Source of the DNA: Allodiplogaster sudhausi
Lineage: Eukaryota > Nematoda > Chromadorea > Rhabditida > Diplogasteridae
NCBI GenBank assembly: GCA_945643635.1
Contig: CALZFC010000097.1
Location: 239,501 to 303,500, forward strand
DNA: 64,000 bases
Direction of reading: 5' to 3'
In this document: in pieces, positions 13,377-49,375 of the stretch
Position numbering within the stretch: position 1 is the first letter of the stretch
How the letters are laid out: each line of letters begins with the position of its first letter
The notes under the pieces: model-generated
Told to the model about the DNA's origin: nothing
The model's database searches: none
The model's input: the letters and a program-made list of their open reading frames with translations, nothing else
Program-made: the position numbers and the translations under genes

Positions 13377-13389
13377 TCGCTTTTCGTCG

Positions 13390-26698: not shown

Positions 26699-27035
26699 TG
26701 TAATGAAGCTAGCGCGCTTCTACGTTGTCGTGTGGATGTGGAGAAGACGAGGGAAAGTATGTGACACTTCTTTATCACCAAACTTGGCCCCAAAGGCAAC
26801 AACTAAATAGGACAAGGCAAGGGAAACGCAACCGCTCTAAAAGAGCTCAACCAGGCAGACTCAATAATATATTCTTAAAAGTCACGAAATGAATGAGAAG
26901 CTGACGTGTCATAACAAAAGACACCGCTCTCTAACTACAAGCATTCATAGAATGCACAACCAATGGCACTACAACTAGAGTGCACTTACATGGAATGGGG
27001 AGAAAGGAATGAGGTGGGAGGGGATCACTGTGACA
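26699..27035 (-). repeat. 3' LTR of the gypsy element
   Basis: 337 bp, TG...CA on both strands. Differs from the other LTR at three positions that I can see: near 26759, near 26817 and near 27029. Flanked on the left by TGTC. Confidence 0.95.
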
Positions 27036-27045
27036 TCCCCCTCCT
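27036..27045 (-). other. polypurine tract
   Basis: AGGAGGGGGA on the coding strand immediately before the 3' LTR; the usual primer site for plus-strand DNA synthesis in LTR elements. Confidence 0.8.
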
Positions 27046-29183
27046 ATCGATGCGGGCGTCCTCGACCGCCACGCTTGAGTGTCGCTGACTGCTGATGAGT
27101 GGAGAGAGGTTCTGCTTGCTGCTGCCTGGACTGGATGGAGTGCCGTTGTTGCTGTTCGGGATGAAGTCGCTCGTTACCATCAGGTCACTTGAATTCGCCG
27201 CCACCAGATCGCTTGAGATGGAGTCGCTTGAGGGTTTGCCCTTCGTAGTCGGCCCGCTGCTCGTCCCGTTGTCGTCGCTCGTTGTCCATCGTACCAGCTC
27301 CTGCAGCAACTCCTCATTCTCCTCACTGTTCTTGCTCTCTCCAGCCAAACAGTTTATCCTTCTCTGCATTCTCTTCTTATTCAATTCCCCGATCTGACAC
27401 TCTTCTGCTACCTTTCTCAGCTGATCAAAAGGAATGATGAGTTGCTCCTTACTACCTTCCTTTTTCACTCTCGCTGAGTTCTCTGTCACATCAATAACAC
27501 GGAAAGGCCCGCTCCATTCTGGTGTCAACTTCGGTACCGTATCCCCTCTTCCTACGGGTACTCTCACCAGCACTCTCTCACCTTTCCTTGGGTACTCTTT
27601 CTCTTCTACTCGATTCTTCCTATCATAATTGCTCTTCATTTTCCCGATTTCCTTCCTAGCGCGTTCTGCCGCTTCTTCTCTCGCCATTCGCATCCCCTCC
27701 ACTAGCTCTCTCGCATAGTCTTCTACTTCTACTGGCTTCTTTCCAACCTCTGCAAGTCTCTCTCCAAGTGGTCTCGGTTCTCTACCATATACTAAGAAGT
27801 ATGGGCTCATGCCAGTAGTGAAATGCGGCTTCGTATTATAAGCATAAACACAGAATGGCAGCATTTCGTCCCATTTCTCCTTCTCTTTCACCTTCTTCTG
27901 GAGCAATCTGATAAGGGTTCCGTTCAGTCTCTCGCACATGCCATTCTCGCGTGGAACATATCCCTTCGTCAAGATGTGCTTCACTTCTAGGATCTCAAGA
28001 ATATGGCTAAGAACGCGGTTCACGAATTCTCCCCCTCTATCAGACACCAGATTCTGCGGGAGACGACCTTCAGCTATCCATCCCCAGCAGAATTTCTCTG
28101 CTACTTCTTTTGCTCCCTTCGTCTGCATTGCAAATGCGGCTCCAAGCTTAGAGAAACAATCGATAACTGTCAGCATGTATCGATTACCCGAGAGAGATGT
28201 TCCCACCTCCATCACATCGATTGCCACTGTCTCGAATGGCTCTCCCACTACCATCGGCTTCAAAGGTGGCACCATCTCCTCTCTCACATTGAAAAGCGTA
28301 CATTCTCGGCACTTCTCGATGTACTCTCTAATGTCCTGGTTCATACTCGGCCAAAAGTACTCTTTGAGCTTCTTCTTCGTCTTGCTCACTTCCCAGTGTC
28401 CACCTAACTTTCCATCATGAAATTGCTCCAAAACTTCAGCACGCAGCTCTTCTGGGACGTAAAATTTACGCCCTCCTCGCGCTCCCTCTACCATCAGCAG
28501 ACCATTCTCTTCCGACCAACGGAATCCCTTCTCGCGCACCATTTTCTCCATTACTCCTTCCAACTTTCCCTTCATCTCACCGGCGAAAGCGTCGTCTTTC
28601 AACTTCTCGCGCCATCGCTCTCGCGTTCCTCCTAGGGACAGCGAGTTCACTACTCGCTCGATCTCGGCTTTCTCCTCTTGGGCCGATTCACTCGTTTCTG
28701 CTCCTGGCACTAACTCTCCTTTGCTCAGTGCGTCTGCAACCTTATTTGCCTTCCCTTTCACATACTCGATTGTGACATCACAAAACTGCAGTTCCAATGC
28801 CCATCTCATGATCCGCGCAGAAGTTGTTCTTTCACTGAAAAGCGCTTTCAACGGCATGTGGTCCGTTCTCACCACTACTCGCGTTCCAAAATAGATCGGC
28901 TTGAATTTGCGCAGCGCGTACATGACTGCTAGAGCTTCGCTATCAGTCACGTGGTACCTTCTCTCCGCTGGCGTGCACCTCTTCGATGCGAAGTACAAAG
29001 GATGGAAACAACCATCCTCCCCTTCCTGAGTCAAGACTGCTCCTACTGCTACTTGGCTCGCATCACAGTAGATCACAAAGGGTCTCTCTCCCTTCAAAGC
29101 CGCGTTCACGTCTGGCTGTGCTAGAATTGGAGCAGAAATGAACATCTCTTTCAGTTCCTCGAATGCTCTCTGCTCCTGCTCTC

Positions 29184-29263
29184 CCCACTTCCACTCTACC
29201 TTCTCACTCGTCAGTCTGGTCAACCCACTTCCACTCTACCTTCTCACTCGTCAGTCTGGTCAA
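29184..29263. repeat. 40-bp tandem duplication in gypsy pol
   Basis: The block starting CCCACTTCCACTCTACC occurs twice with a 40-bp period (29184 and 29224). Since 40 is not a multiple of three, it breaks the pol frame. Confidence 0.9.
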
Positions 29264-29332: not shown

Positions 29333-29338
29333 CAACTC
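29333..29338. other. 6-bp target-site duplication, left copy
   Basis: CAACTC immediately before the element end ATGATGAGTGTG, repeated at 45065-45070. Removing one copy plus 29339-45064 restores the gypsy reading frame as REVKELKRFLGMASFYRKF. Confidence 0.95.
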
Positions 29339-29368
29339 ATGATGAGTGTGCTGACCGTCTTGACCGGT

Positions 29369-29715
29369 CGAAATTTTTCTAAGTCCAGAAAGTCCTGTTG
29401 AAATTTTCACCGGTTATTTTTCTAAGTCCAGAACTCCCGTTGAAATTTTCGACCATTAATTTTTCTAAGTCCAGAACTCCCGTTGAAATTTTCGACCATT
29501 AATTTTTCTAAGTCCAGAACTCCCGTTGAAATTTTCATCCATTATTTTTCTAAGTCCAGAAGTCCCCGTTGAAATTTTCATCCATTATTTTTCTAAGTCC
29601 AGAAGTCCCCGTTGAAATTATCATCCATTATTTTTCTAAGTCCAGAAGTCCCCGTTGAAATTATCATCCGATATTTTTCTAAGTCCTGAACTTAGAATTG
29701 AAATTTTTCCCGTTC
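29369..29715. repeat. 43-bp tandem repeats at the left terminus, about 8 units
   Basis: Unit ATTTTTCTAAGTCCAGAACT and onwards (about 43 bp), with units varying slightly (CGACCATT or CATCCATT at the end). Mirrored at about 44688-45034. The word AAGTCCAG also recurs in the tRNA-like modules further in. Confidence 0.9.
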
Positions 29716-29734
29716 CACCTCGTTCTTGACCTGT

Positions 29735-30295
29735 GGAAATATCACAAGTCCAGGATCCCGACGGGAACCGAACCTGGGTCGCTTGCGTCGTAAGTCCCTG
29801 TGTTACCAATCGGCTATTCGTCCATCATACCAAGTTGTATGTGAAGAAGTAGACATTCGTGTGGCAGTGATCATACATCAGAGATCACACATCAATCACC
29901 GGAGGGGGGGTATTGTCAGGTCCAGATTTCTGCTAGTCGAAATATCACAAGTCCAGAACACTGAGAGGAATCGAACCTGAGCCGCTTGCGTCGTATGTCG
30001 TGACGTTACCAATGGGCTATTCGGTCATCATACCAACTTGCAAGTGAAGATGTAGACATTCGTGTGGAATGTGATCATACATCACATGATCACAGATTAT
30101 ATCCAAGGGGATAATATTTTTCAGCTAGTCGAAATATCACAAGTCCGGAATAAATAGAGCAATTGATATTGACCCAAGGAGGAATCGAACCTGAAACCTT
30201 TCGATTTGAAAACAAACTCACTACCAATGAGCCAATCGGCCGTCATACCATCTCGCAACTGAATATGTAGACATGCAAACGTGTATGTGGTAGTG
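29735..30295 (-). repeat. three tRNA-like modules in the left arm
   Basis: Read on the minus strand, three modules of about 110-190 bp each contain GGTATGA, an A-box-like TTGGTA/ATTGGTA word and a B box (GGTTCGATTCC, or GGTTCGGTTCC in the outermost). The A-to-B spacing is tRNA-like, and each ends with GGACTTGTGATATTTC. They are centred near 29790, 29985 and 30215. Stems are only partly paired, so they are tRNA-like rather than functional tRNAs. The plus-strand mirror copies are at about 44105-44668. Confidence 0.6.
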
Positions 30296-30524
30296 ATACA
30301 TATTTTCCACCAAGTCAAAACCCCTCGTGAATAATTCAGATACAGGAATATTTTCCAAGTCCGAAACCCCCGATGAATATTACTTTTAAAATATTCCAAG
30401 GTCAGGAAGAATGAATAATGATAGGAATTGAGCGAAACGTAAGCTAATTTATCATGCAATAACATGTAGTGACATGAAAAGAAAAAAACCGGAAGCGAAC
30501 ATATTCTCCAGTGTACATGTACTA

Positions 30525-30731
30525 TCATAAATGATGACCAAGTCTTTCTCTGTACTTTCTCTTTATGTTCTCAATAAATTTAATATAACGCCAACGAATT
30601 CTATTTATATCTGTACTGTTCTTAATGGAATGTATTATGAAATAACTTAACGCCCACGCAATAATGAAAATAACATATGATTTATGTACATACAAGTTAG
30701 AGAAAGAAAGAAAAGTTACGAAAAATGTCAT
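30525..30731 (-). CDS. small ORF with one hydrophobic segment (left arm)
   Basis: 68 codons from ATG, with a hydrophobic stretch (SYVIFIIAWALSYFIIH) followed by a basic tail (RIRWRYIKFIENIKRKYRER). It lies just downstream of, and on the same strand as, the small gene at 31151-30896. The mirror copy is at 43671-43877. Possibly a small membrane protein of the element; chance is not excluded. Confidence 0.3.
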   Translation of the reverse strand: MTFFVTFLSFSNLYVHKSYVIFIIAWALSYFIIHSIKNSTDINRIRWRYIKFIENIKRKYRERLGHHL

Positions 30732-30895
30732 ATAGGCTATGATGCATGTCTTATCAGCGTTCAGGATCTAGAGAGGATGCTACCAGCGCCAAGGCGGACA
30801 AGTTAGAAATAGTGCATACAAAAGGAGAGTCAAATCACAAACAGTACATTGATCACGAAAGCTACAAGATGCGGACAGTTACGAAGCTTCCTTCT

Positions 30896-31151
30896 CTATG
30901 CAATAGTAATATTGAAAGTGACTTTGCTGCCCTTCTCGATATGGAAGACGATCTGTCCCTCCTTGCCTATAGCCACGTTTTTGACAGTTTCTTCCTCATC
31001 GTTTTCCACCTAAAAGCAAATGATTTTAAATAAAATGAAGTGTCAAAGAACAAACCTTTTCGTATGCTTTCCCGTCCGCGCGTATTCGTTTGCCAATGCT
31101 AGCTGGACGTTTATTTGAAGGAAGTGATGTGGATGCATTCGCGGTTGACAT
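30896..31151 (-). CDS. small two-exon gene of the Maverick-like element (69 aa, left arm)
   Basis: Exons 31151-31056 and 31009-30896, mirror of 43251-43346 and 43393-43506. The basic N-terminal part (SNKRPASIGKRIRADGKAYE) joins through a 46-bp intron to an acidic part (ENDEEETVKN), then GQIVFHIEKGSKVTFNITIA. Both exons are in frame with GT-AG ends. Not recognised; it could be a DNA- or protein-binding accessory factor. Its start codon is 36 bp from the divergent polymerase start, so both genes probably share one control region. Confidence 0.55.
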
Positions 31152-31187
31152 GTTTGCAGATTCTCAGTCTATCACCTGTCAAGAATC
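31152..31187. promoter_or_regulatory. 36-bp divergent start-to-start spacer
   Basis: Only 36 bp separate the ATG of the small gene (minus) from the ATG of the polymerase gene (plus). Any shared promoter must overlap the first exons. No TATA-like motif is obvious. Confidence 0.45.
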
Positions 31188-34100
31188 ATGAAGCGCGCAA
31201 GCAATGATGGAAACGACAGCATCGCCAAGAAGGCACGTAGCGACATCCAAGTAAGAAATAAATATTATCTATCAAATTATTAACTTGCTGTATATAGGAA
31301 AAATTACCTTGAATTATATAGAAATTTTGAAATAAAATAGGAGCGAGATAAAGAGCAGCTGTCTTCTACCTCTACGGCTGTCCATTATGATCGAAGACTT
31401 GTGCCGTACAGCGACACAAGCAGTGACAGCAGCAGCGGTAGCGGCAGCAGCAGCAGCGCCAGCAGCAGCAACGAAGAATACGTATGTACACATCTTTCTA
31501 TTCTATTTTTCAAGATTATTTTTCTAGATATTTTTTTCTTCAATTTTACTCAATGGACCAGTTATTTATTATTGTTCAAAGGTGTAATTATTATAACAGT
31601 CTGACAACGAAATGTACGTCGACAATGAAACGGCAAGCGACAGTGGCAGCTCGTCGGGGGATGACGACAGTGTCTATGAAGACAGTGACGAAGAGGAAAT
31701 GGATGATGAAGAGGAAGTCGAGGAAGAAGAAGAAGTGGAAGTATTCAATTTGTTATATTTCTGTTGTTTTTAAAGGATAATTTTTTATTTCAAATGTTAA
31801 ATATAATAGGGCCCTCTCCATATTGACGGTGTGCTGCATGAGGTCAAAGACTTTTACAAAGTGGAAGACCTCTCGAGAAGCAGAAACAAGAGGTTCCGGG
31901 TGCAACAGGAAGACATCTCCATTCGATTCCGCAAACTGGCCAAGAGAACAAATGATCTCGATGGACTCTTTGACCTGGTCAGTTTGTTTTTACAGAACTA
32001 TACAATTTGAAAGTTTACAATTATACGTTGTGATATTTCTGTATGAACGCATTAATGTTTCATTATAAATTTTTAGGTCATGCTTGACGTACTCGAGGAT
32101 AGTAAGCCACCTCAACATGGAAGCGACCTTCGTGTCTCGGTCGCCATTAACCAAGAAGGCCAAGCAAGGGCCTACTACATGAAGCCCTCAGTATATTCGG
32201 ACAATATTCCGAACATACTGCGCAAGGAGATCTCATTTGCGAACACGTCAACAGGAGTGGCAACACCGCTTCTGCTCAGCGAGGTATGTACATTAGATCA
32301 AAGTATTTTCAATTTATTGTAATCCATTTATTATGTATCTTTTAGCTTCACGTTAGGATCTCGTGGATAGATGTGCCCACCGGATCCGGAAATCGTTCTT
32401 TCGCCAAAAAGAATGATTGGACTAACATTACAAAGGCCAAAGGTTTGCAAAATCGAAATTATTGTTTATACAATGTTCAGGAACTTATAATGTTACTATT
32501 TTATTAAATTTATTACAGGCAAGAAGGACTGCCTTGCAAAGGCCATTGCAATTGGCATGGCCTACCTTGACCGTAAGAATGACGCCCTCAGATGGAGGTC
32601 AATCTCGCGTCATGAAGGACGACAACAGAAGGTCGCAGACCTCTACCACAGGGAATTTTCGATACCGAAGAAGAGCAGCTACACTATTGACGACGTGAAG
32701 CTCTTCCAAGAGAACATGCCAGGCGTCCAGCTGGTCTTGTTTTATGGTGACAAACCAGGAAAGGCAGTCTTTTCCGGCGATTACATTGACGACAACAGCG
32801 TAATTGGACTTCGTCTTCGCCGAGGCCACTTTGACCACATTAAAAGAGTCTCCACATTCTTCAGTTAGTCATTTTAATTATATTTTAAGTACATGTAAAA
32901 TATTTATTTTCAATTTAAGATCGCCACTTTTACTGCTCACTATGTGATGTTTTGGACAATGCTGCATCGGCACACTACTCGTGCCCTGTCAACTGTGACA
33001 AATGTGGAACGCGCGAGAAGGACATGTGCAATGGGCACGGTGCACACAAGTGTGAGGCTTGTGGCGTCGTCTGCCACAACGAAGAATGCCTGACAAGGCA
33101 CCAAGAGAAAGGTTATCAAATTTGTTTAAATATTTGTAAATATATATTTTATCCTAGGAACTCACGGAGGTCGTTCCTTCTGTGAGATTCTCGACAAGTG
33201 CCCAAACTGCCACCATTCCAAGGGCGAGAAACGAAAGGGTCGTCCTCACCAATGCGGCTTTTCCTACTGTGCTACTTGTTGTGAGGACCGTCCGGAAGGC
33301 CACAAGACGTGCTACGTCTCAACTATCCCGCCCCTGTCAAAGACGTTCAAGAAGAAGACGATAGTATTCGACATCGAAGTAAGAATTTTATTAATTTTGT
33401 CTATTAAAATTTTTTTATTGTTTGAATATAATTCTTCTTTATCTTCAGACACTATTTTATTATTATTATTTGTTTTACTCAGACTCGCATTGTGAAGAAT
33501 AAGAGGGGGGCAAAGATGCACGTGCCCAATCTGATCATTGCCCTTCGCTCGTGCGGAAAATGCGAAAGAGAGCTGCCCAAGGACGTTTACGATGTCACAT
33601 GCAGTTGTGACCACTGTGGAGGGAGGAGGCTCTGGCAGTGGCAGGCGCTGGACAACCCCAAGAAGAGGATCATCGAAGAGTTCTGCGACTGGGTGTTCGG
33701 CGACGAACACAAAGGCTTCACCGTTGTCGCCCACAACCTCCGCGCGTTAGTATTTATCCTTTTATATAATTCTTAATTTTAAATTGGATTATTTATCATT
33801 TTATTTATTAATATGCTATCAAGGTTTGTTATTTTAGCTACGATGGCCAGTTTATTCTGCGCCATCTGTGCAGCGACAGAAGCACAGTCGCGCCCTCCGA
33901 GTTGATCATGGCCGGAAGAAAAATCATGAAACTCGAGGTCAACAACGTCAGAATGGTTGACTCGCTGAGCTTCCTCTCCATGCCTCTCGCCTCGTTCCCC
34001 AAGGCATTCGGAATCAAGGAATTGAAGAAGGTATCTTAAAAAAATTTATTAGAAATACTTCAATTTAAATATTTAGGGCTACTTTCCGCACCGCTTCAAC

Positions 34101-36030
34101 CGCCCTGCCAACTACCAATACATGGGTGAGCTGCCGGACAAGAAGTACTTTGGGTACATGTCGATGCGCGATGAGGCGAGGACTGCATTCGACTCGTGGC
34201 ACGACGAGTACAAGCGCCAGGACTTGGCATTCGACTTCCGTCTGGAGATTGAAGCTTATTGCTTCTCCGACGTCGTTCTCCTGCATGAGGGCATTCGCAC
34301 CTTTGATGCGGAATGCTTTGGCGCCACAGGTGTTCACGTCTTTCACGAGAGCGTGACGGCAGCCAGTGCGGCCATGCGTGTCTTCCGCCGCAAGTTCCTC
34401 AAGAAGGACCTCCTGGCTGTCGAGAAGCCGATCACGGCAGAGGACAAGCAGAGTCGCCTGGCACTCAAGATGCTTGCGTAAGTATTAATATATATATTTT
34501 AATTTATTAAACAATATTCCACTTTTAGCTACCTGAGGAAGACCAAGGGAGTGCATATCCGTGACGCGCAGCACGGCGGCGAGAAGAGAATCAAGGGAAC
34601 TCGCTACCGTGTTGACGGATTCGTCAAGAGGCCGAGCAAGAAGGATCTCATCATCGAGGTACATTTGCTATTTTGATAAAAAAAAACAATTATATTCAAC
34701 ATTTATTGTTTGTTCATTTGTATATGTTTCTAGTTCCTTTGATACAACATATATTTTAGATCCACGGCTGCTACTGGCATGCCTGTCGTTGCCGCTACTC
34801 GGACCACACGATGGTTCGTGGCCGACGTGCAGCCCTCATCCGTCAAGAAGATGAGGCGCGACTCCAGCATCTCAGACGCAAGCACAAGGTCGTCGTCATC
34901 AGAGAGTGCCAGATCGAGAAGAGACTCAAGAAGGACGACAAGATACGGCAATTCTTTGCCGACTACGAGATTGGGGTTAGAATTTTTTACTTATTTCATT
35001 TAATAAAAATAAATGTACATTTACAGGAGCCTCTCAATCTTTACGACGCCTTCTTTGGCGGGAGATGCGAGGTCTTCCGCATGTACGCGAAACCAGAGCC
35101 CGGGTACACGATCCGCTACCTCGACGTCTGCAGTAAGTATTTTTAAGAATAATCATAAATATTATTTAAATAAGTAATTGAAAATATTTCTTTAGGTCTG
35201 TACCCGTACACGAACAAGTACAGGCCTTATCCTGTGGGTAAGGGCAAGATGGTGGACGTCTCGAGGATCCAGACGCCCATCACGAAGCCGGAAGAGCTGA
35301 CGATTCAAGGATTCGTCAAGTGCACAGTAAGCTGAAAATTTATTAATTAAAACATTTATTAAAGTATGTTATTAGGTCCTGCCGCCGACTCGTCTCTTCG
35401 TTCCCGTTCTGGCGCTTCGTTCTGGCGGCAAGAATGTCATGCCTCTGTGTGCCGCATGTGCCGAGAAGATGGATCCCTACACTCTCGGCTGCCAGCACAG
35501 CAAGAAGGAGAGACAGTTCGTCGGCACCTTCGCCACCGTCGAACTCATCGAGGCCCTCAAGTGCGGCTACCAGATCCTGAAGATCCACTCGGTTCGTTTT
35601 AAATAAATTTTGGTAGAAGTACATTTTATTTAAACAAAACAGTAAATTTTATTTAGGCGCGCCACTACAAAAAGTGGTCGCTCTATGAGCGGAACGCGGC
35701 CACTGGAGAAGTTACCCACGGTGTCCTGTCCGAATACATGGACACGTGGGTCGGCAAAAAGACGGTATATTTTATTTTGTTTGATTATTTGTCTCTTGTT
35801 ATATTTATATTTTATAGGAGGCATCCGGGTGGCCTGCTTCCGCGGACACTGAAGAGAAGAAGAGCGCGTTCATCACGCGCTTCGAGGAGAGGGAAGGAAT
35901 CCGCTTGAATGCGGAAACTATCGCTCACAATCCCGCGGCCAGACAAGTCTCCAAGCTGATGGCCAACTCGCTTGTCAGTTTAAAATTTTTTGAATACATA
36001 TTGTTTTATTTTTATATGAATGCGAGATAA
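31188..36030 (+). pseudogene. protein-primed family B DNA polymerase, truncated at motif B (left arm)
   Basis: Nineteen exons with introns of about 46-120 bp: 31188-31250, 31341-31481, 31600-31740, 31810-31977, 32077-32283, 32346-32442, 32519-32863, 32920-33111, 33158-33378, 33483-33745, 33838-34030, 34077-34477, 34529-34658, 34760-34975, 35027-35132, 35196-35326, 35376-35591, 35657-35764 and 35818-35973. They sum to 3495 nt (1165 codons) in phase. Order: Ser-rich and acidic N-terminus (about 35-115), Cys/His-rich zinc-binding region (about 388-515), Exo I VFDIE (about 521), Exo II NLRAYDGQ (about 610), Exo III YCFSDVVLL (about 738), an HGCYWHACRC nuclease-like insert (about 855), motif A DVCSLYP (about 960) and the start of motif B KLMANS (about 1160). 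The exon ends at a GTCAGT donor; beyond it lies rearranged sequence, so motif C (DTDS) and the thumb are absent. It is a relative of Maverick pPolB but should be catalytically dead. Confidence 0.9.
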
Positions 36031-36540
36031 AGAGCAGCTGTCTTCTACCTCTACGGCTGTCCATTATGATCGAAGACTTGTGCCGTACAGCGACACAAGC
36101 AGTGACAGCATTGCTTGCGCGCTTCATGATTCTTGACAGGTGATAGACTGAGAATCTGCAAACATGTCAACCGCGAATGCATCCACATCACTTCCTTCAA
36201 ATAAACGTCCAGCTTCCCTGTGTTACCAATCGGCTATTCGTCCATCATACCAAGTTGTATGTGAAGAAGTAGACATTCGTGTGGCAGTGATCATACATCA
36301 GAGATCACACATCAATCACCGGAGGGGGGATATTGTCAGGTCCAGATTTCAGCTAGTCGAAATATCACAAGTCCGGAATAAATAGAGCAATTGATATTGC
36401 CCCGAGGAGGAATCGAACCAGAACCTTTCGATTTGAAAACAAACTCACTACCAATAAGCCAATCGGCCGTCATACCATCTCGCAACTGAATATGTAGACA
36501 TGCAAACGTGTATGTGATAGTGATACATATTTTCCCAAGT
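36021..36540. repeat. scrambled second copies of outer-arm sequence
   Basis: Three pieces are joined: 36021 to about 36112 copies 31341-31430 (polymerase exon 2) in direct orientation; about 36113-36213 copies 31203-31098 inverted; about 36214-36352 copies roughly 29799-29938 direct, then jumps to a copy of about 30122-30310. The mirror is at 37862-38381 in the right arm. Confidence 0.85.
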
Positions 36541-36899
36541 CCAAAACCCATCGTGAATAATTCACCATTGTATTATTTCCCAAAACATTATTGAACTGTC
36601 TAAATCTTACAAGTCCAGTTATGCATTTTATCATATTCAATATATAACAATCACGATGAGGCACAATTCTCGAGAACAGATTTTTCACGAATATTATTGA
36701 GGGTGACATTGTGAAACACTGCAGATTGGATTCTCTGGTTGGCGACGATACAAGAATTGCAGAGACGAATATGTGTCATGTTGTTGGTCGTAGTGTCGTT
36801 AAGCTTTGCACAAACGTTGCAAACGGCAATGACGATGAATCGGTGGCTTTTCAAGAGGTGTCCGTGATTGCTTACTTGAGATGGCCGTTGGAAGGCATC

Positions 36900-37502
36900 C
36901 TCTCCTGCTTCTGCACCTGCTGCAACTAGTACAACTATTGAATCTAAAGGAAAGAACATTGCTGAAACTATGCCTGTTCCTTCTGTAGAATCCAATATCG
37001 AGAAAAAGGCTTTTAACTGTGAAGATTGCGGAAATGTATTCTCGACTGGTTTTAATCTACGTCGACACATTAAGCGCGCTCACAGTGGTGAGGAAATTTA
37101 TCAGCCACGTCATGCACGTTACATTCGACCCCTTGGTACTATTCAACTACTCACAGACGAATCTGATAACGTCTATGTGCAGTTCCGCCCCTTTGACGAC
37201 TGAGGCAGTCATTACTTGAAAAATTCAATCAGGTCAAATGGTTCGTTCCCAGTCTTCTTCATCTTCATCTTCTTCGTCTTCCATTTCCTCGCATTCAAAA
37301 ACTTCGCGTAAGGAAAAGGTTTTGTTTAAAATTGCATGTTTTTGAATTTTTTCTATATATCATTCATTTTCAGCTTCGTGAACGCAAACGAAGGTTTACT
37401 GCGACTGCAAAGGATGAACCTAAGGCAAAGGTATACTTTTCTCGTGCTCTTGCAATTTCACCATTTGTTATAAATTTGCAGAAGAGCTTCAAAGAACTCG
37501 TT
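36900..37502. other. unique centre of the palindrome (603 bp)
   Basis: The two arms stop matching after the shared GGCATC/GATGCC at 36899 and 37503. The spacer holds a C2H2 finger ORF and the first exons of a Ser/basic gene, both on the plus strand. It is the only non-duplicated part of the element. Confidence 0.9.
36970..37203 (+). CDS. C2H2 zinc-finger ORF in the palindrome centre (77 aa)
   Basis: Contains one classical finger, CEDCGNVFSTGFNLRRHIKRAH (first part CEDCGNVFSTGFNL; C-x2-C-x12-H-x4-H with the expected Phe and Leu), then a Tyr/Arg-rich tail ending in TGA. The frame is open upstream to 36880 (Ser/Pro/Ala/Thr-rich), across the arm junction, so the original gene may have been longer with its 5' part lost when the palindrome formed. 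Possible DNA-binding regulator or element cargo. The ATG at 36970 is the first in frame. Confidence 0.55.
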   Translation: MPVPSVESNIEKKAFNCEDCGNVFSTGFNLRRHIKRAHSGEEIYQPRHARYIRPLGTIQLLTDESDNVYVQFRPFDD

Positions 37503-37751
37503 GATGCCTTCCAACGGCCATCTCAAGTAAGCAATCACGGACACCTCTTGAAAAGCCACCGATTCATCGTCATTGCCGTTTGCAACGTTTGTGCAAAGCT
37601 TAACGACACTACGACCAACAACATGACACATATTCGTCTCTGCAATTCTTGTATCGTCGCCAACCAGAGAATCCAATCTGCAGTGTTTCACAATGTCACC
37701 CTCAATAATATTCGTGAAAAATCTGTTCTCGAGAATTGTGCCTCATCGTGA
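37238..37751 (+). CDS. Ser-rich basic protein gene spanning centre and right arm (135 aa, 3 exons)
   Basis: Exons 37238-37318, 37374-37430 and 37482-37751, with introns of 55 and 51 bp. The N-terminus is MVRSQ plus a run of about ten Ser, then basic sequence (RERKRRFTATAKDEPKAK). The third exon crosses the arm boundary at 37503 and encodes FQRPSQVSNHGHLL, VCNVCAKL and RLCNSC; the two Cys-x2-Cys pairs suggest a zinc site. The part in the right arm is duplicated in the left arm (36899-36651, minus) without its 5' exons, which shows that the right side keeps the original arrangement. Family not recognised. A donor-like CAA/GTAAGC inside exon 3 could give another splice form. Confidence 0.5.
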
Positions 37752-38371
37752 TTGTTATATATTGAATATGATAAAATGCATAACTGGACTTGTAAGATTT
37801 AGACAGTTCAATAATGTTTTGGGAAATAATACAATGGTGAATTATTCACGATGGGTTTTGGACTTGGGAAAATATGTATCACTATCACATACACGTTTGC
37901 ATGTCTACATATTCAGTTGCGAGATGGTATGACGGCCGATTGGCTTATTGGTAGTGAGTTTGTTTTCAAATCGAAAGGTTCTGGTTCGATTCCTCCTCGG
38001 GGCAATATCAATTGCTCTATTTATTCCGGACTTGTGATATTTCGACTAGCTGAAATCTGGACCTGACAATATCCCCCCTCCGGTGATTGATGTGTGATCT
38101 CTGATGTATGATCACTGCCACACGAATGTCTACTTCTTCACATACAACTTGGTATGATGGACGAATAGCCGATTGGTAACACAGGGAAGCTGGACGTTTA
38201 TTTGAAGGAAGTGATGTGGATGCATTCGCGGTTGACATGTTTGCAGATTCTCAGTCTATCACCTGTCAAGAATCATGAAGCGCGCAAGCAATGCTGTCAC
38301 TGCTTGTGTCGCTGTACGGCACAAGTCTTCGATCATAATGGACAGCCGTAGAGGTAGAAGACAGCTGCTCT

Positions 38372-41300
38372 TTATCTCGCATTCATAGAAAAATAAAACA
38401 ATATGTATTCAAAAAATTTTAAACTGACAAGCGAGTTGGCCATCAGCTTGGAGACTTGTCTGGCCGCGGGATTGTGAGCGATAGTTTCCGCATTCAAGCG
38501 GATTCCTTCCCTCTCCTCGAAGCGCGTGATGAACGCGCTCTTCTTCTCTTCAGTGTCCGCGGAAGCAGGCCACCCGGATGCCTCCTATAAAATATAAATA
38601 TAACAAGAGACAAATAATCAAACAAAATAAAATATACCGTCTTTTTGCCGACCCACGTGTCCATGTATTCGGACAGGACACCGTGGGTAACTTCTCCAGT
38701 GGCCGCGTTCCGCTCATAGAGCGACCACTTTTTGTAGTGGCGCGCCTAAATAAAATTTACTGTTTTGTTTAAATAAAATGTACTTCTACCAAAATTTATT
38801 TAAAACGAACCGAGTGGATCTTCAGGATCTGGTAGCCGCACTTGAGGGCCTCGATGAGTTCGACGGTGGCGAAGGTGCCGACGAACTGTCTCTCCTTCTT
38901 GCTGTGCTGGCAGCCGAGAGTGTAGGGATCCATCTTCTCGGCACATGCGGCACACAGAGGCATGACATTCTTGCCGCCAGAACGAAGCGCCAGAACGGGA
39001 ACGAAGAGACGAGTCGGCGGCAGGACCTAATAACATACTTTAATAAATGTTTTAATTAATAAATTTTCAGCTTACTGTGCACTTGACGAATCCTTGAATC
39101 GTCAGCTCTTCCGGCTTCGTGATGGGCGTCTGGATCCTCGAGACGTCCACCATCTTGCCCTTACCCACAGGATAAGGCCTGTACTTGTTCGTGTACGGGT
39201 ACAGACCTAAAGAAATATTTTCAATTACTTATTTTAATAATATTTATGATTATTCTTAAAAATACTTACTGCAGACGTCGAGGTAGCGGATCGTGTACCC
39301 GGGCTCTGGTTTCGCGTACATGCGGAAGACCTCGCATCTCCCGCCAAAGAAGGCGTCGTAAAGATTGAGAGGCTCCTGTAAATGTACATTTATTTTTATT
39401 AAATGAAATAAGTAAAAAATTCTAACCCCAATCTCGTAGTCGGCAAAGAATTGCCGTATCTTGTCGTCCTTCTTGAGTCTCTTCTCGATCTGGCACTCTC
39501 TGATGACGACGACCTTGTGCTTGCGTCTGAGATGCTGGAGTCGCGCCTCATCTTCTTGACGGATGAGGGCTGCACGTCGGCCACGAACCATCGTGTGGTC
39601 CGAGTAGCGGCAACGACAGGCATGCCAGTAGCAGCCGTGGATCTAAAATATATGTTGTATCAAAGGAACTAGAAACATATACAAATGAACAAACAATAAA
39701 TGTTGAATATAATTGTTTTTTTTTATCAAAATAGCAAATGTACCTCGATGATGAGATCCTTCTTGCTCGGCCTCTTGACGAATCCGTCAACACGGTAGCG
39801 AGTTCCCTTGATTCTCTTCTCGCCGCCGTGCTGCGCGTCACGGATATGCACTCCCTTGGTCTTCCTCAGGTAGCTAAAAGTGGAATATTGTTTAATAAAT
39901 TAAAATATATATATTAATACTTACGCAAGCATCTTGAGTGCCAGGCGACTCTGCTTGTCCTCTGCCGTGATCGGCTTCTCGACAGCCAGGAGGTCCTTCT
40001 TGAGGAACTTGCGGCGGAAGACACGCATGGCCGCACTGGCTGCCGTCACGCTCTCGTGAAAGACGTGAACACCTGTGGCGCCAAAGCATTCCGCATCAAA
40101 GGTGCGAATGCCCTCATGCAGGAGAACGACGTCGGAGAAGCAATAAGCTTCAATCTCCAGACGGAAGTCGAATGCCAAGTCCTGGCGCTTGTACTCGTCG
40201 TGCCACGAGTCGAATGCAGTCCTCGCCTCATCGCGCATCGACATGTACCCAAAGTACTTCTTGTCCGGCAGCTCACCCATGTATTGGTAGTTGGCAGGGC
40301 GGTTGAAGCGGTGCGGAAAGTAGCCCTAAATATTTAAATTGAAGTATTTCTAATAAATTTTTTTAAGATACCTTCTTCAATTCCTTGATTCCGAATGCCT
40401 TGGGGAACGAGGCGAGAGGCATGGAGAGGAAGCTCAGCAAGTCAACCATTCTGACGTTGTTGACCTCGAGTTTCATGATTTTTCTTCCGGCCATGATCAA
40501 CTCGGAGGGCGCGACTGTGCTTCTGTCGCTGCACAGATGGCGCAGAATAAACTGGCCATCGTAGCTAAAATAACAAACCTTGATAGCATATTAATAAATA
40601 AAATGATAAATAATCCAATTTAAAATTAAGAATTATATAAAAGGATAAATACTAACGCGCGGAGGTTGTGGGCGACAACGGTGAAGCCTTTGTGTTCGTC
40701 GCCGAACACCCAGTCGCAGAACTCTTCGATGATCCTCTTCTTGGGGTTGTCCAGCGCCTGCCACTGCCAGAGCCTCCTCCCTCCACAGTGGTCACAACTG
40801 CATGTGACATCGTAAACGTCCTTGGGCAGCTCTCTTTCGCATTTTCCGCACGAGCGAAGGGCAATGATCAGATTGGGCACGTGCATCTTTGCCCCCCTCT
40901 TATTCTTCACAATGCGAGTCTGAGTAAAACAAATAATAATAATAAAATAGTGTCTGAAGATAAAGAAGAATTATATTCAAACAATAAAAAAATTTTAATA
41001 GACAAAATTAATAAAATTCTTACTTCGATGTCGAATACTATCGTCTTCTTCTTGAACGTCTTTGACAGGGGCGGGAGAGTTGAGACGTAGCACGTCTTGT
41101 GGCCTTCCGGACGGTCCTCACAACAAGTAGCACAGTAGGAAAAGCCGCATTGGTGAGGACGACCCTTTCGTTTCTCGCCCTTGGAATGGTGGCAGTTTGG
41201 GCACTTGTCGAGAATCTCACAGAAGGAACGACCTCCGTGAGTTCCTAGGATAAAATATATATTTACAAATATTTAAACAAATTTTATAACCTTTCTCTTG

Positions 41301-43214
41301 GTGCCTTGTCAGGCATTCTTCGTTGTGGCAGACGACGCCACAAGCCTCACACTTGTGTGCACCGTGCCCATTGCACATGTCCTTCTCGCGCGTTCCACAT
41401 TTGTCACAGTTGACAGGGCACGAGTAGTGTGCCGATGCAGCATTGTCCAAAACATCACATAGTGAGCAGTAAAAGTGGCGATCTTAAATTGAAAATAAAT
41501 ATTTTACATGTACTTAAAATATAATTAAAATGACTAACTGAAGAATGTGGAGACTCTTTTAATGTGGTCAAAGTGGCCTCGGCGAAGACGAAGTCCAATT
41601 ACGCTGTTGTCGTCAATGTAATCGCCGGAAAAGACTGCCTTTCCTGGTTTGTCACCATAAAACAAGACCAGCTGGACGCCTGGCATGTTCTCTTGGAAGA
41701 GCTTCACGTCGTCAATAGTGTAGCTGCTCTTCTTCGGTATCGAAAATTCCCTGTGGTAGAGGTCTGCGACCTTCTGTTGTCGTCCTTCATGACGCGAGAT
41801 TGACCTCCATCTGAGGGCGTCATTCTTACGGTCAAGGTAGGCCATGCCAATTGCAATGGCCTTTGCAAGGCAGTCCTTCTTGCCTGTAATAAATTTAATA
41901 AAATAGTAACATTATAAGTTCCTGAACATTGTATAAACAATAATTTCGATTTTGCAAACCTTTGGCCTTTGTAATGTTAGTCCAATCATTCTTTTTGGCG
42001 AAAGAACGATTTCCGGATCCGGTGGGCACATCTATCCACGAGATCCTAACGTGAAGCTAAAAGATACATAATAAATGGATTACAATAAATTGAAAATACT
42101 TTGATCTAATGTACATACCTCGCTGAGCAGAAGCGGTGTTGCCACTCCTGTTGACGTGTTCGCAAATGAGATCTCCTTGCGCAGTATGTTCGGAATATTG
42201 TCCGAATATACTGAGGGCTTCATGTAGTAGGCCCTTGCTTGGCCTTCTTGGTTAATGGCGACCGAGACACGAAGGTCGCTTCCATGTTGAGGTGGCTTAC
42301 TATCCTCGAGTACGTCAAGCATGACCTAAAAATTTATAATGAAACATTAATGCGTTCATACAGAAATATCACAACGTATAATTGTAAACTTTCAAATTGT
42401 ATAGTTCTGTAAAAACAAACTGACCAGGTCAAAGAGTCCATCGAGATCATTTGTTCTCTTGGCCAGTTTGCGGAATCGAATGGAGATGTCTTCCTGTTGC
42501 ACCCGGAACCTCTTGTTTCTGCTTCTCGAGAGGTCTTCCACTTTGTAAAAGTCTTTGACCTCATGCAGCACACCGTCAATATGGAGAGGGCCCTATTATA
42601 TTTAACATTTGAAATAAAAAATTATCCTTTAAAAACAACAGAAATATAACAAATTGAATACTTCCACTTCTTCTTCTTCCTCGACTTCCTCTTCATCATC
42701 CATTTCCTCTTCGTCACTGTCTTCATAGACACTGTCGTCATCCCCCGACGAGCTGCCACTGTCGCTTGCCGTTTCATTGTCGACGTACATTTCGTTGTCA
42801 GACTGTTATAATAATTACACCTTTGAACAATAATAAATAACTGGTCCATTGAGTAAAATTGAAGAAAAAAATATCTAGAAAAATAATCTTGAAAAATAGA
42901 ATAGAAAGATGTGTACATACGTATTCTTCGTTGCTGCTGCTGGCGCTGCTGCTGCTGCCGCTACCGCTGCTGCTGTCACTGCTTGTGTCGCTGTACGGCA
43001 CAAGTCTTCGATCATAATGGACAGCCGTAGAGGTAGAAGACAGCTGCTCTTTATCTCGCTCCTATTTTATTTCAAAATTTCTATATAATTCAAGGTAATT
43101 TTTCCTATATACAGCAAGTTAATAATTTGATAGATAATATTTATTTCTTACTTGGATGTCGCTACGTGCCTTCTTGGCGATGCTGTCGTTTCCATCATTG
43201 CTTGCGCGCTTCAT
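38372..43214 (-). pseudogene. protein-primed family B DNA polymerase, truncated at motif B (right arm)
   Basis: Mirror of 31188-36030; each exon boundary is 74402 minus the left-arm coordinate, from ATG at 43214 to the read-through stop at 38372. All exonuclease motifs, the Cys-rich region, motif A and the motif B start are kept, and the same C-terminal loss is present. One amino-acid difference from the left copy was seen (Leu for Ile just upstream of Exo I, near 41083). Sharing the same truncation shows that the polymerase was broken before, or by, the inverted duplication. Confidence 0.9.
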
Positions 43215-43250
43215 GATTCTTGACAGGTGATAGACTGAGAATCTGCAAAC

Positions 43251-43506
43251 ATGTCAACCGCGAATGCATCCACATCACTTCCTTCAAATAAACGTCCAGC
43301 TAGCATTGGCAAACGAATACGCGCGGACGGGAAAGCATACGAAAAGGTTTGTTCTTTGACACTTCATTTTATTTAAAATCATTTGCTTTTAGGTGGAAAA
43401 CGATGAGGAAGAAACTGTCAAAAACGTGGCTATAGGCAAGGAGGGACAGATCGTCTTCCATATCGAGAAGGGCAGCAAAGTCACTTTCAATATTACTATT
43501 GCATAG
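43251..43506 (+). CDS. small two-exon gene of the Maverick-like element (69 aa, right arm)
   Basis: Exons 43251-43346 and 43393-43506 (32 and 37 codons). Identical to the left-arm copy described at 30896-31151, again 36 bp from the divergent polymerase start at 43214. Confidence 0.55.
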
Positions 43507-43670
43507 AGAAGGAAGCTTCGTAACTGTCCGCATCTTGTAGCTTTCGTGATCAATGTACTGTTTGTGATTTGACTCTCCTTTTGTATGCACTATTTCTAAC
43601 TTGTCCGCCTTGGCGCTGGTAGCATCCTCTCTAGATCCTGAACGCTGATAAGACATGCATCATAGCCTAT

Positions 43671-43877
43671 ATGACATTTTTCGTAACTTTTCTTTCTTTC
43701 TCTAACTTGTATGTACATAAATCATATGTTATTTTCATTATTGCGTGGGCGTTAAGTTATTTCATAATACATTCCATTAAGAACAGTACAGATATAAATA
43801 GAATTCGTTGGCGTTATATTAAATTTATTGAGAACATAAAGAGAAAGTACAGAGAAAGACTTGGTCATCATTTATGA
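43671..43877 (+). CDS. small ORF with one hydrophobic segment (right arm)
   Basis: Mirror of 30731-30525. It starts with ATG 165 bp after the small gene. Its TGA overlaps an ATG opening the next frame (ATGA), which runs to 44281 through the first tRNA-like module and is unlikely to be coding. Confidence 0.3.
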   Translation: MTFFVTFLSFSNLYVHKSYVIFIIAWALSYFIIHSIKNSTDINRIRWRYIKFIENIKRKYRERLGHHL

Positions 43878-44104
43878 TAGTACATGTACACTGGAGAATA
43901 TGTTCGCTTCCGGTTTTTTTCTTTTCATGTCACTACATGTTATTGCATGATAAATTAGCTTACGTTTCGCTCAATTCCTATCATTATTCATTCTTCCTGA
44001 CCTTGGAATATTTTAAAAGTAATATTCATCGGGGGTTTCGGACTTGGAAAATATTCCTGTATCTGAATTATTCACGAGGGGTTTTGACTTGGTGGAAAAT
44101 ATGT

Positions 44105-44668
44105 ATCACTACCACATACACGTTTGCATGTCTACATATTCAGTTGCGAGATGGTATGACGGCCGATTGGCTCATTGGTAGTGAGTTTGTTTTCAAATCG
44201 AAAGGTTTCAGGTTCGATTCCTCCTTGGGTCAATATCAATTGCTCTATTTATTCCGGACTTGTGATATTTCGACTAGCTGAAAAATATTATCCCCTTGGA
44301 TATAATCTGTGATCATGTGATGTATGATCACATTCCACACGAATGTCTACATCTTCACTTGCAAGTTGGTATGATGACCGAATAGCCCATTGGTAACGTC
44401 ACGACATACGACGCAAGCGGCTCAGGTTCGATTCCTCTCAGTGTTCTGGACTTGTGATATTTCGACTAGCAGAAATCTGGACCTGACAATACCCCCCCCT
44501 CCGGTGATTGATGTGTGATCTCTGATGTATGATCACTGCCACACGAATGTCTACTTCTTCACATACAACTTGGTATGATGGACGAATAGCCGATTGGTAA
44601 CACAGGGACTTACGACGCAAGCGACCCAGGTTCGGTTCCCGTCGGGATCCTGGACTTGTGATATTTCC
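44105..44668 (+). repeat. three tRNA-like modules in the right arm
   Basis: Plus-strand versions of the left-arm modules. The first (about 44153-44235) has TTGGCTCATTGGTAGTGAG as A box with a possible D arm, and GGTTCGATTCC as B box about 45 nt later. The second is near 44375-44440 and the third near 44575-44645. Each is followed by the shared tail GGACTTGTGATATTTC. Confidence 0.6.
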
Positions 44669-44687
44669 ACAGGTCAAGAACGAGGTG

Positions 44688-45034
44688 GAACGGGAAAAAT
44701 TTCAATTGGAAGTTCAGGACTTAGAAAAATATCGGATGATAATTTCAACGGGGACTTCTGGACTTAGAAAAATAATGGATGATAATTTCAACGGGGACTT
44801 CTGGACTTAGAAAAATAATGGATGAAAATTTCAACGGGGACTTCTGGACTTAGAAAAATAATGGATGAAAATTTCAACGGGAGTTCTGGACTTAGAAAAA
44901 TTAATGGTCGAAAATTTCAACGGGAGTTCTGGACTTAGAAAAATTAATGGTCGAAAATTTCAACGGGAGTTCTGGACTTAGAAAAATAACCGGTGAAAAT
45001 TTCAACAGGACTTTCTGGACTTAGAAAAATTTCG
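44688..45034. repeat. 43-bp tandem repeats at the right terminus
   Basis: Mirror of 29369-29715, about eight units, ending 30 bp before the element end. Confidence 0.9.
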
Positions 45035-45064
45035 ACCGGTCAAGACGGTCAGCACACTCATCAT

Positions 45065-45070
45065 CAACTC
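45065..45070. other. 6-bp target-site duplication, right copy
   Basis: CAACTC directly after the element end (CTCATCAT), identical to 29333-29338. Confidence 0.95.
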
Positions 45071-48000
45071 TTTCACCTCTCGCGGCGCTTGCAACTCGAT
45101 TATTTTCTGCACTTTTGCTGCATCCATTTTCACTCCTTCGCGCGTCACCATATGCCCAAGATACTCTACTTCTGCTTGTGCAACCCGGCACTTCTGAGCC
45201 TTCAACTTCAAACCATGTTTTCTGAAGGCTTCCAAAACCTTCTCAAGCATCTGCGCGTGCTCTTCCTGCGTCTCCGTGGCAATCAGAATGTCGTCAATGT
45301 AGACGGCCACCTGATCTCCAAGCAAATCAGCCAAAATTCGCTCCATTAACCGCTGGAATGTGGCTGGTGAAGTACTCAAACCAAAAGGCAGTACATTGAA
45401 CTCGTACAGTCCACCCATCGTGCAGAAGGCAGTCTTCTCCTTAGACCCCTCCTCCATTTCTACTTGCCAATACCCCGCCATCAAATCCAGAGTGGTGAAC
45501 CACTTCTTTCCGCTCAGCTTCTGAATTGTCAAATCAATTCGCGGCAGAGGATACGCGTCCTCTCTCACCACCGAGTTCAGCTTCCTATAGTCTACGCACA
45601 ATCTCAATGTTCCGTCCTTCTTCTGCGCTATCACCAAAGGAGAGGCCCAAGGGGAGTTGCTGTCTCTGATTACCCCCCTCCTCTTCATATCAGAAAGCAT
45701 CTCCCGCACTTTCGTCTGCACTCCCAATGGCACTGGCCTTCCTTTCTGCTTAATGGGGCGAGCTTCACCAGTGTCATTCACGTGCTTGACCATGCTCGTT
45801 CTCCCCATTTCTTCTTCTGTCACAGCAAACACTTCCGCGTTCTGCTTTACTACTCGTCTACACTCTTCGTTCTCTATCGCGCCCTGCTTCTCCACAAGCT
45901 GCAAGACTACTTCTGCTCTCTCGCTCGACACTTTCTCTCGCTGCTGTTTCTTCTCGGTCTCTACTTCGCTCTCAATTAGCACAAAATCGGCTTTTCTCCA
46001 CTCGCCGACTTTCTCGCCCTTGTTCAGTATCAGCGGAGTCTGCTGCAAGTTCATCACTTGCACCCTCCTTCTACCCGCTGTTCTCTGCATTACTCCTCCA
46101 CTCAGTCCATGCAACTCGCTAGAAAGAAAACTGCGCGTTCCATCTGTTGGTGCCTCCAGCATGACATCCTTCTGAGCCAGTGGTCCGATGTACACTCGTT
46201 CGACCACTACTGCTGGCTCTCCCTTTTCCTCTCTCTCTGTCCAGCACCCATCCCACAGCTCAATCGTGTTCTGTCCCAGGAGAACTTGCCACCCGTTCTC
46301 GACAACATACACGCCAACCTTCTTCTCGTTCCCGTTCATTTTCAACTGGACTAATGCTTTCCCCACTACGCGCAATTTGCTCGCCGCCGCGTCCAAGAGC
46401 TCCTCCTTTGTCTCTCGCCACTCTATCTGCGTGCCTGCTTCTTCTACTTGCTTCATGACCCCCTGCGGAATCGTGGTGATCTCCGCTCCCGTGTCAAGAA
46501 CAGCATCCGGAATGACGACACCGTTTATCGTCACTTCCGTCTTCTTCAGTGGCCTCCAGAAGACTCCTTCTTCCTCGTCCACTTCTCTCACCTGCTCGTT
46601 CTCTCTCGCACTCTCTTTCCTAGGCACATCTTCTACTTCGCGCATGACATTGCTTGTCGTTCTCGACATGTTCGTTGTGCACTGCCAGGCCATGTGGCCA
46701 CGTCCTCCGCAGCTATAACACTTCACAGGAGGTCTCGTGCTTCCGAGCGCGTTCCCGTTCTCTCTCGGAATACTCGTAATATTCCTCACATCTTGTGTCG
46801 GTTGCGGCCGACTCTCACTCGCACTCGGCACAAAAGGACGCGCTCCGGGGTTGAACTCTCCTCCCGTCCTCTGTCCGCTCTGCCCTTGATGGCTCGTCTG
46901 CTGCTTGTGGCCAAAGCGTGGCCCAAACAGTCTCGGTCCCCTACTCTTCTCTGGCTCTCTGTGTCCCTCTCTCACATTCACAGTAAACGGATTTCTACTG
47001 CTCGCCCCTGCTGCCAACTTCGCGCCTCTCTGCTCTACTATCTCCATTCTACTCGCGTGCTCTTTCACTTTCTCGTACTTCTCTCGCTTGTCTGCTCTCT
47101 CCATCACTTCAATCAGTTCGCGGTAGTAAGTCCACTCTCCCAGCTGCTTCAGCAGCTTCTTCGCCATTATCGGTGCAAGATGCTTCTCAGGCATCTCAGG
47201 GAATGCCCTATCCGCCATCTCTTCCACTCGCATGCAGAATGAACTAACACTCTCGCTACTTCTCTTCGACATCTCCTCCCAATCTCGCATCGCTTCGTAC
47301 TCTTGCATGGTCTGGTCTCCTTTCAACCTCTCTCGCATTTTTGCCTTCATATCTTCATAGGTTGCTACCCGTTTCCGCGCAAAAGAGTTGAAAATCGTCT
47401 CTGCCTCTCTCTCCAAATGGTTCTTCAACAACTGAGTCATCTGCTGATCCGAAGCAATTGGCCTATACTTCATCTCCAATCTGCTCAAGAATGCGTCGAA
47501 CTTCTTCAAGCCCCCTTTCCCATCAAACATTCCTACAGGCGGCATAGCCATTGACAACATTGCACTCGCTTGCTTCTCACCTAGTAATCCCGCGGCAGAA
47601 CCCAACATGCTCTCACTTTGACTACTCCCCGCTCTCTCACTTTGACTGCTATACGCTTTCTCCAGTCCATGCGGCACCCCTTCTATACGTCCACCACCTA
47701 CTCCTTTGCTCTTTCTCACCCCACCTGGAATGAACAACGAATCGGACTGACATTCAGAAGAATTCGACTCGTTCCTTCTTCTCGTCTCCTTCTCTCCTGC
47801 TCTTCTTCTTCTCTTCTCACTGCCGCTGAAGGCGCTCTCGCCCGGATGCTCCTGGAATGAAAATTGATTGCTGTCTTGCAACTCGATTTTCCTCATCATT
47901 TCATTCATTTTTGCTTTCATTTCGGTCACTTCAATCATTAACGCATGCTTACTGGCAGAACTACCTTGTAAAGAGACAATTTCATCATTCTTCTCACCTT

Positions 48001-49038: not shown

Positions 49039-49375
49039 TGTAATGAAGCTAGCGCGCTTCTACGTTGTCGTGTGGATGTGGAGAAGACGAGGGAAAGGAT
49101 GTGACACTTCTTTATCACCAAACTTGGCCCCAAAGGCAACAACTAAATAGGACAAAGCAAGGGAAACGCAACCGCTCTAAAAGAGCTCAACCAGGCAGAC
49201 TCAATAATATATTCTTAAAAGTCACGAAATGAATGAGAAGCTGACGTGTCATAACAAAAGACACCGCTCTCTAACTACAAGCATTCATAGAATGCACAAC
49301 CAATGGCACTACAACTAGAGTGCACTTACATGGAATGGGGAGAAAGGAATGAGGTGGGAGGGGATCACCGTGACA
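49039..49375 (-). repeat. 5' LTR of the gypsy element
   Basis: 337 bp, followed on the plus-strand right side by the duplicated TGTC (49376-49379). About 99% identical to the 3' LTR. Confidence 0.95.

Follow-up and report, generated by a model that had tools for sequence, protein, structure and literature searches.

The 64,000-bp stretch of the Allodiplogaster sudhausi genome analyzed here (GenBank assembly GCA_945643635.1, contig CALZFC010000097.1, positions 239,501 to 303,500; the window in what follows, with coordinates counted from its first letter) contains at 29339-45064 a palindrome of 15,726 bp, consisting of two inverted arms around a 603-bp center. The element is probably a non-autonomous palindromic derivative of a Maverick/Polinton transposon, which would have originated by snap-back replication of a linear, protein-primed DNA molecule and then integrated in trans. 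The arms are 7,561 and 7,562 bp long and differ at eight places (seven base changes and one 1-bp indel). Both termini of the element read ATGATGAGTGTGCTGACC, and the 6-bp target-site duplication (TSD) CAACTC flanks the palindrome and exactly abuts these two termini, which are both of the type termed end A below.

The palindrome interrupts a young gypsy retrotransposon bounded by long terminal repeat (LTR)-like direct repeats (26699-27036 and 49039-49376; 99.1% identity, 338 bp compared). On reconstruction of the empty site, with the element and one CAACTC removed, the gypsy reading frame closes and reads through the joint. The 2-kb flanks to the left and right of the palindrome show no similarity to each other. 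The near-identical arms and an insertion with a clean 6-bp TSD had been described in an initial annotation of the window, and both are borne out by these data.

To place the element, we searched the genome assembly (351.8 Mb in 382 contigs; loci are named by contig, C97 being the window) with its terminus, with the fused arm and in a third DNA search, for which the best 40 of 301, 366 and 179 candidates, respectively, were scored; further genome searches scored the best 150 of 326 candidates for the integrase, 150 of 154 for a marker of end B, and 118 of 118 for a polymerase exon. The terminus has at least 47 matches (from the best 40 of 301 candidates), many of them arranged as facing pairs 7-18 kb apart, and full relatives with the same termini, for which the initial annotation had proposed a search, were recovered. 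These ordinary relatives measure 13-18 kb and extend from an end with the polymerase gene (end A) to an end with a zinc-finger gene (end B). Ten ordinary or deleted relatives were fetched. One side of each carries terminal repeats or sequence of the end-B type, and in nine of them the opposite side carries end-A polymerase sequence (C340a is without polymerase, and C114a without most of end B). Exact 6-bp TSDs are present in seven of the nine relatives with readable termini, five of six bases agree in C29, and C262c has none; the tenth, C18, was not readable. The best inverted terminal match spans 372-870 bp in seven of nine pairs compared (roughly 0.4-0.9 kb), against 7.56 kb in the window element; the match in C19 (707 bp) is displaced from one terminus, and that in C18 (1,373 bp) includes 300 bp of mirrored flank.

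C262b, the sole relative scanned for genes, has matches to an integrase (rve, 1.3e-9), a chromodomain (Chromo, 9.9e-8), and an adenovirus-type protease (Peptidase_C5, 9.2e-5, above the cut-off), AAA/A32/FtsK-like ATPase matches below the cut-off, and a C2H2 frame at end B. A 435-amino-acid open frame of C262b (L014:3956-5260), a capsid candidate, has no Pfam match and 14 homologs, two of them named as Pristionchus proteins, in keeping with a nematode host. The combination of integrase, chromodomain, protease, and ATPase-like matches assigns the family to the Mavericks/Polintons, whose defining features are taken here from PMC4028283. Judged by the termini that it shares with a relative encoding the Maverick gene set, the window element is a member of this family resident in the genome, in agreement with the Maverick origin first suggested. 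At a separate locus (C248 1455797-1473089), the integrase search has four matches that alternate in orientation and repeat every 10.76 kb; a palindromic Maverick from a divergent subfamily may have been duplicated there.

The joints of the palindrome also emerge from the comparison with ordinary relatives. Positions 29339-36022 of the window are end A, and ordinary end B, read from the outside inward, corresponds to 36222-36899 followed directly by the reverse of 36892-37502. As the center and the right inner arm together make up ordinary end B, the newly formed joint is that on the left, at 36899/36900. The initial annotation had described one Maverick end, duplicated as an inverted repeat and replacing the rest: the inverted duplication in place of the rest holds, but the mapping rejects an arm made of one single end, since each arm combines end A, a scrambled piece and part of end B, with additional template switches.

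The new joint coincides with one half of an 8-bp interrupted inverted repeat, AAGGCATC on the left and GATGCCTT on the right. In C262c, the closest of the first eight ordinary end-B copies (99.85% identical), AAGGCATC and GATGCCTT stand exactly 603 bp apart, and joining at a perfect repeat of this type reproduces the observed 603-bp center. Outside the window, 11 end-B copies were compared: the first eight, the two from the C17 1.52-Mb element, and the one at the left of C340 3.66 Mb. The repeat is perfect in one of them, and the other ten mismatch one base of the left half. At a random inverted joint, shared sequence of 8 bp or more has a frequency of 2.3e-4. The 8-bp inverted repeat with its 603-bp spacer in this closest ordinary end B explains the palindrome, as expected for snap-back template switching. 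Three further joints lie inside the arm and are present in both arms, so that they are either older than the fold-back or were copied by it. The only full-length matches to the fused arm, among the best 40 of 366 candidates, are the two window arms, and the left center joint, used as an exact pattern, occurs once in the genome. A multi-copy family of this very palindrome was rejected on these grounds, and the window copy is private rather than one of a uniform family.

Each arm carries a family-B DNA polymerase gene of 19 exons. In the left as in the right arm, every exon has an open frame and the phases are consistent; two exons each have one amino-acid change between the arms. Exon 12 matches Pfam DNA_pol_B_2 above the cut-off (2.1e-7), and exons 11 and 14-15 match it below the cut-off. 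The 19-exon gene originally predicted is correct in its exons but amounts to a 5′ part only: it breaks off in intron 19, past the motif-B exon and before motif C, and the later exons are absent. In the ordinary relative L013, the polymerase runs on into these further exons, DTDS motif included. The polymerase exons gave nothing informative when scanned against viral contigs, six pieces had weak matches only in PHROGs, PDB sequence searches and a protein search with exon 7 returned nothing useful, and a protein search with exon 12 returned a single fragment, 39% identical. Exon 14 (34760-34975), situated between the exonuclease and polymerase parts, has a weak endonuclease-like PHROG match (E 0.1). 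The integrase, protease, and ATPase parts of the family, as mapped on ordinary relatives, are in neither the arm nor the center of the window element, and the integrase search has no match at C97 among the best 150 of 326 candidates. Because these parts are missing, the window copy is classified as a non-autonomous derivative, as first proposed, and not as a complete Maverick.

Symmetric forms recur in this genome. At least seven loci have end A at both termini (A-A loci): C97, C16, C237, C30, C251, C259, and C325, with C259 identified by combining two genome searches. Six of the seven have 6-bp TSDs: CAACTC (C97), CCCGTT (C16), AATACG (C237), CGCAAG (C30), TTTGTC (C251), and TCTGCG (C259). 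The C16 element is 14,350 bp long with a 268-bp center. Its arms align in two blocks, of 6,542 bp (99.97% identity) and 515 bp (99.8%), and are set apart by a small rearrangement close to the right end; the breakpoints are unlike those of the window element. The common end is shorter in C30 (about 1.9 kb) and C251 (about 2.2 kb), the latter with an extra inner terminus followed by mirrored flank. At C325, the flanks are fully mirrored around the palindrome (941 bp at 100%) and TATAAC is found only at the outermost termini of the tangle; this locus is suspect and may be an assembly tangle or an in-place event.

C30, C251, and C237 have interior stretches in common: C30 and C251 are 96.6% identical over 3.7 kb, the alignment of C237 with C30 crosses the joint between end A and the common interior, and C259 matches a 1-kb piece of this interior at 87%. 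With four A-A loci containing a common interior, one A-A form has apparently been copied and spread to several sites. The interior has no match in the 19 ordinary or deleted stretches L009-L027. It is also held by C253, C103, C10, and C46, whose other ends are unread. Several kilobases of A-A interior are contained in L033:600-5540 and L034:3262-7850, where the open frames tested have no significant Pfam matches.

The relative orientation of neighboring markers gives a second view of the symmetric forms. For the B marker, 130 of 138 matches were counted (eight second fragments excluded), and those within 20 kb of each other form 14 facing pairs and no back-to-back pair; a polymerase marker lies between the two in three of the 14, which leaves 11 B-B pairs. 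The A-promoter marker (38 of 40 matches counted, excluding the two inside the window arms) forms six facing pairs within 20 kb, one back-to-back pair 19.9 kb apart, and one same-direction pair. Ordinary A-B pairs number 61, with a spacing clustered near 9.5 kb, counted as adjacent facing markers that are not all verified single elements. It should be noted that the A-A counts are lower bounds, given that the DNA searches scored the best 40 candidates.

Both B-B termini were read at C17 1.52 Mb, C245, and C262 2.67 Mb, and in part at C340. The C17 arms are 4,130 bp long and 99.6% identical, with a damaged left terminus and no TSD; C245 is flanked by CACGTG and CACGTT; C262 2.67 Mb has mirrored flanks; and C340 3.66 Mb has undergone more rearrangement, so that end-A sequence lies past the right marker. 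No family terminus was found in the stretches fetched for C35 and C5; those of C35 mirror each other over 932 bp and match no family end. Support for the B-B class comes from the counts more than from clean termini. The outer flanks of C18 (L021/L022), C325 (L036-L038), and C262 2.67 Mb (L050/L051) are inverted copies, representing assembly tangles or in-place inverted duplications.

The origin that we favor would begin with a linear Maverick molecule, the right end of which consisted of the center, the end-B piece, the scrambled piece, and end A. Copying would start at that right end and run inward past the center; the new strand would then snap back at the 8-bp interrupted inverted repeat, 603 bp apart, and copy its own strand to the terminus, yielding a molecule with two identical end-A halves. 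An integrase supplied by an intact relative would insert this palindrome into the gypsy pol gene with a 6-bp duplication. The joints themselves demonstrate template switching; protein priming, a free linear intermediate, and integration in trans we infer from the genes of the ordinary family, and the order of the steps is likewise our reconstruction. Inward copying from a protein-primed end followed by snap-back keeps the starting end at both termini, and would thus account for A-A and B-B forms alike. Integration would be possible since a symmetric molecule has two good termini, which is all that the integrase should need.

Several observations weigh against an origin by snap-back replication. 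No extrachromosomal form was observed. The window fusion is single-copy, so its own movement rests on one TSD, and no perfect TSD was found at any B-B pair with termini read. Microhomology is not uniform: joints 1-3 inside the arm share 0-2 bp (by eye), and at the fold joint of C16 the shared sequence is no longer than 3 bp and includes a mismatch. In favor of snap-back, a third fold joint, that of C325, shares 6 bp. Adjacent polymerase-exon markers (102 of 114 matches counted, excluding 11 second fragments and the lone locus C186) form one facing pair, the window itself, versus two back-to-back and two same-direction pairs; the window is the sole facing pair because the other A-A loci have lost the exon on one or both sides. 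Chromosomal break repair can also form palindromes, and some loci have mirrored flanks.

Break repair is the basis of the main rival, which we regard as unlikely for the window element: an ordinary or shortened A-B Maverick inserted first and became palindromic only afterwards, within the chromosome, either through break-induced fold-back repair or because inverted copies lying close together recombined. Mirrored flanks such as those at C325, C262 2.67 Mb, and the A-B element C18 (300 bp), and the inner terminus with mirrored flank at C251, are expected if some palindromes form in place, and chromosomal repair also makes short-homology template switches. However, the flank stretches compared at C97, C237, and C30 show no mutual similarity, those at C16 share only a 17-bp match (E 0.004), and the window TSD abuts two end-A termini exactly. 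In-place copying would need to reach the terminus exactly and halt there, and do so repeatedly, given the TSDs at six of seven A-A loci; the common A-A interior, moreover, is found at several sites with different TSDs. Chromosomal fold-back repair may explain the mirrored-flank loci, but it does not readily explain two exact termini together with a TSD.

That the palindrome is an assembly artefact, whether produced by a read that was folded or chimeric or by repeated ends that became tangled, is very improbable. The assembly does contain suspicious mirrored flanks at C325 and C262 2.67 Mb, and tangles may explain some symmetric loci, but hardly the window element: an artefact should have mirrored flanks, whereas the palindrome lies between two different halves of one gypsy element, with its matching LTRs and an exact TSD. 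The arms differ at eight places, the center is end-B sequence read once, and the new joint falls at a pre-existing inverted repeat. A simple assembly fold-back was rejected on these arm differences, the TSD and gypsy halves, the dissimilar flanks, and the position of the joint. The last alternative, capture of part of a Maverick polymerase gene by an unrelated transposon of the foldback type, with long and internally repetitive inverted repeats, deserves almost no credence and was likewise rejected. Its terminal regions, built of 43-bp tandem repeats, do recall Foldback and Galileo, but the ordinary relatives are bounded by these very termini, tandem repeats, and 6-bp TSDs, and one of them has Maverick integrase, protease, and ATPase-like matches in between.

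The features of the element and its insertion site are collected in table 1. Three tRNA-like units, pointing outward, are present in an arm, the best of them scoring below the Rfam cut-off, and the window has nine B-box matches, eight of them inside the element, against an expectation of 0.14. The tandem tRNA-like modules with A- and B-box-like sequences at 29764-30241 (minus strand, mirrored on the right) are possibly RNA polymerase III promoters or a captured tRNA-derived short interspersed element. Outside the element, at 22479-22548, ARAGORN predicts a tRNA-SeC whose B box is perfect; this could be either a genuine tRNA or a repeat resembling one. The region 776-17912 contains long direct and inverted repeat blocks (e.g., 3067-4571 versus 8674-10178 at 99.5%) around frames at 4706-8523 that resemble a long interspersed nuclear element.

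Table 1. Features of the palindromic element and of its insertion site (window coordinates; RT, reverse transcriptase).
Feature	Position	Strand	Comment
Left TSD, CAACTC	29333..29338	.	gypsy pol frame restored with one copy
Right TSD, CAACTC	45065..45070	.	
Left arm	29339..36899	+	end A, scrambled piece, and part of end B
Right arm	37503..45064	-	inverted copy of left arm
Center, 603 bp	36900..37502	.	with right inner arm, ordinary contiguous end-B sequence
Host gypsy gag-protease-RT frame	45002..48490	-	split by insertion
Host gypsy RNase H-integrase frame	27025..29223	-	opposite side of insertion
43-bp tandem repeats, left terminal region	29373..29690	+	7.4 copies
43-bp tandem repeats, right terminal region	44696..45030	-	7.8 copies
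tRNA-like unit, subterminal	30170..30241	-	weak (24.7 bits; Rfam cut-off 29)
B-box matches	29764, 29967, 30181, 36409		mirrored in right arm too
Small two-exon open frame	30896..31151	-	divergent from polymerase gene; read directly
5′ part of family-B DNA polymerase gene	31188..35973	+	19 exons; ends at motif B in intron 19
Truncated polymerase gene, right arm	38429..43214	-	mirror copy
Extra copy of polymerase exon-2 piece	36022..36110	+	copy of 31343-31431
Inverted copy of end-A promoter piece	36106..36214	-	copy of 31101-31209
End-B subterminal piece	36215..36899	+	left-end orientation
AAGGCATC	36892..36899	+	left half of 8-bp inverted repeat at fold-back joint
GATGCCTT	37503..37510	+	right half of 8-bp inverted repeat
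End-B C2H2 zinc-finger exon	36898..37200	+	cut by fold-back joint

Compared with known systems, the window element resembles Mavericks/Polintons in its local-family termini, its 6-bp TSD, a family-B polymerase of the viral/organellar Pfam family, and a relative in which an integrase, a protease of the adenovirus type, and ATPase-like sequence are matched; it differs in that end A is present twice while the end-B terminus and the integrase, protease, and ATPase parts are absent, in its truncated polymerase, and in its 7.56-kb repeats. With Foldback and Galileo it shares long inverted repeats of tandem sub-repeats around a short center, but those elements have other transposases and TSD lengths and no polymerase. 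The nearest functional parallel seems to be the symmetric defective adenovirus genomes (Ad12 SYREC), linear protein-primed replicons in which one end, duplicated in inverted orientation, takes the place of the other, as in the A-A form that is found in the window and recurs at other loci; Ad12 SYREC, however, is packaged in virions in cell culture, whereas the window element is integrated with a TSD in an animal genome. Symmetric adenovirus genomes are not mentioned in the part of the adenovirus packaging review PMC5033970 drawn on here. In human cytomegalovirus AD169 and Towne, according to PMC2885757, an inverted duplication of the left-end region replaces the right-end region, although herpesvirus replication is not protein-primed and the genome is symmetric only in part. 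In yeast, origin-dependent inverted-repeat amplification likewise exploits an interrupted repeat that is already in place (PMC4689423). There, however, origins and fork strands of chromosomes are involved and the product integrates through homologous recombination, unlike a transposon end with an integrase-type TSD.

The initial annotation had raised the possibility of a distinct class of foldback Mavericks, for which the seven A-A loci and eleven B-B marker pairs speak, although the private window copy does not belong to a uniform family. In the Polinton/Maverick literature on repeats, foldback forms, or palindromes, no such form is described in the titles or abstracts found, subscription papers lying outside the scope of that search. 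Tentatively, and with somewhat less confidence than an even chance would warrant, symmetric Mavericks may constitute a satellite class: snap-back errors would keep yielding A-A and B-B genomes that need one kind of end and use the integrase of intact relatives, and at least one A-A lineage with several kilobases of cargo (C30, C251, C237, C259) would have become established and spread.

Replication of Mavericks from protein-primed ends has been inferred from their genes. If the satellite reading is true, palindromic Mavericks would be molecular fossils of extrachromosomal protein-primed replication in an animal germ line. Snap-back palindromes at a pre-existing inverted repeat are the trace expected from copying from one end, so that counts of A-A and B-B forms in genomes make the replication model testable from sequence alone. 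A snap-back origin would explain very long inverted repeats without a new transposase, and would offer a route by which a virus-like transposon may breed defective, possibly interfering, relatives.

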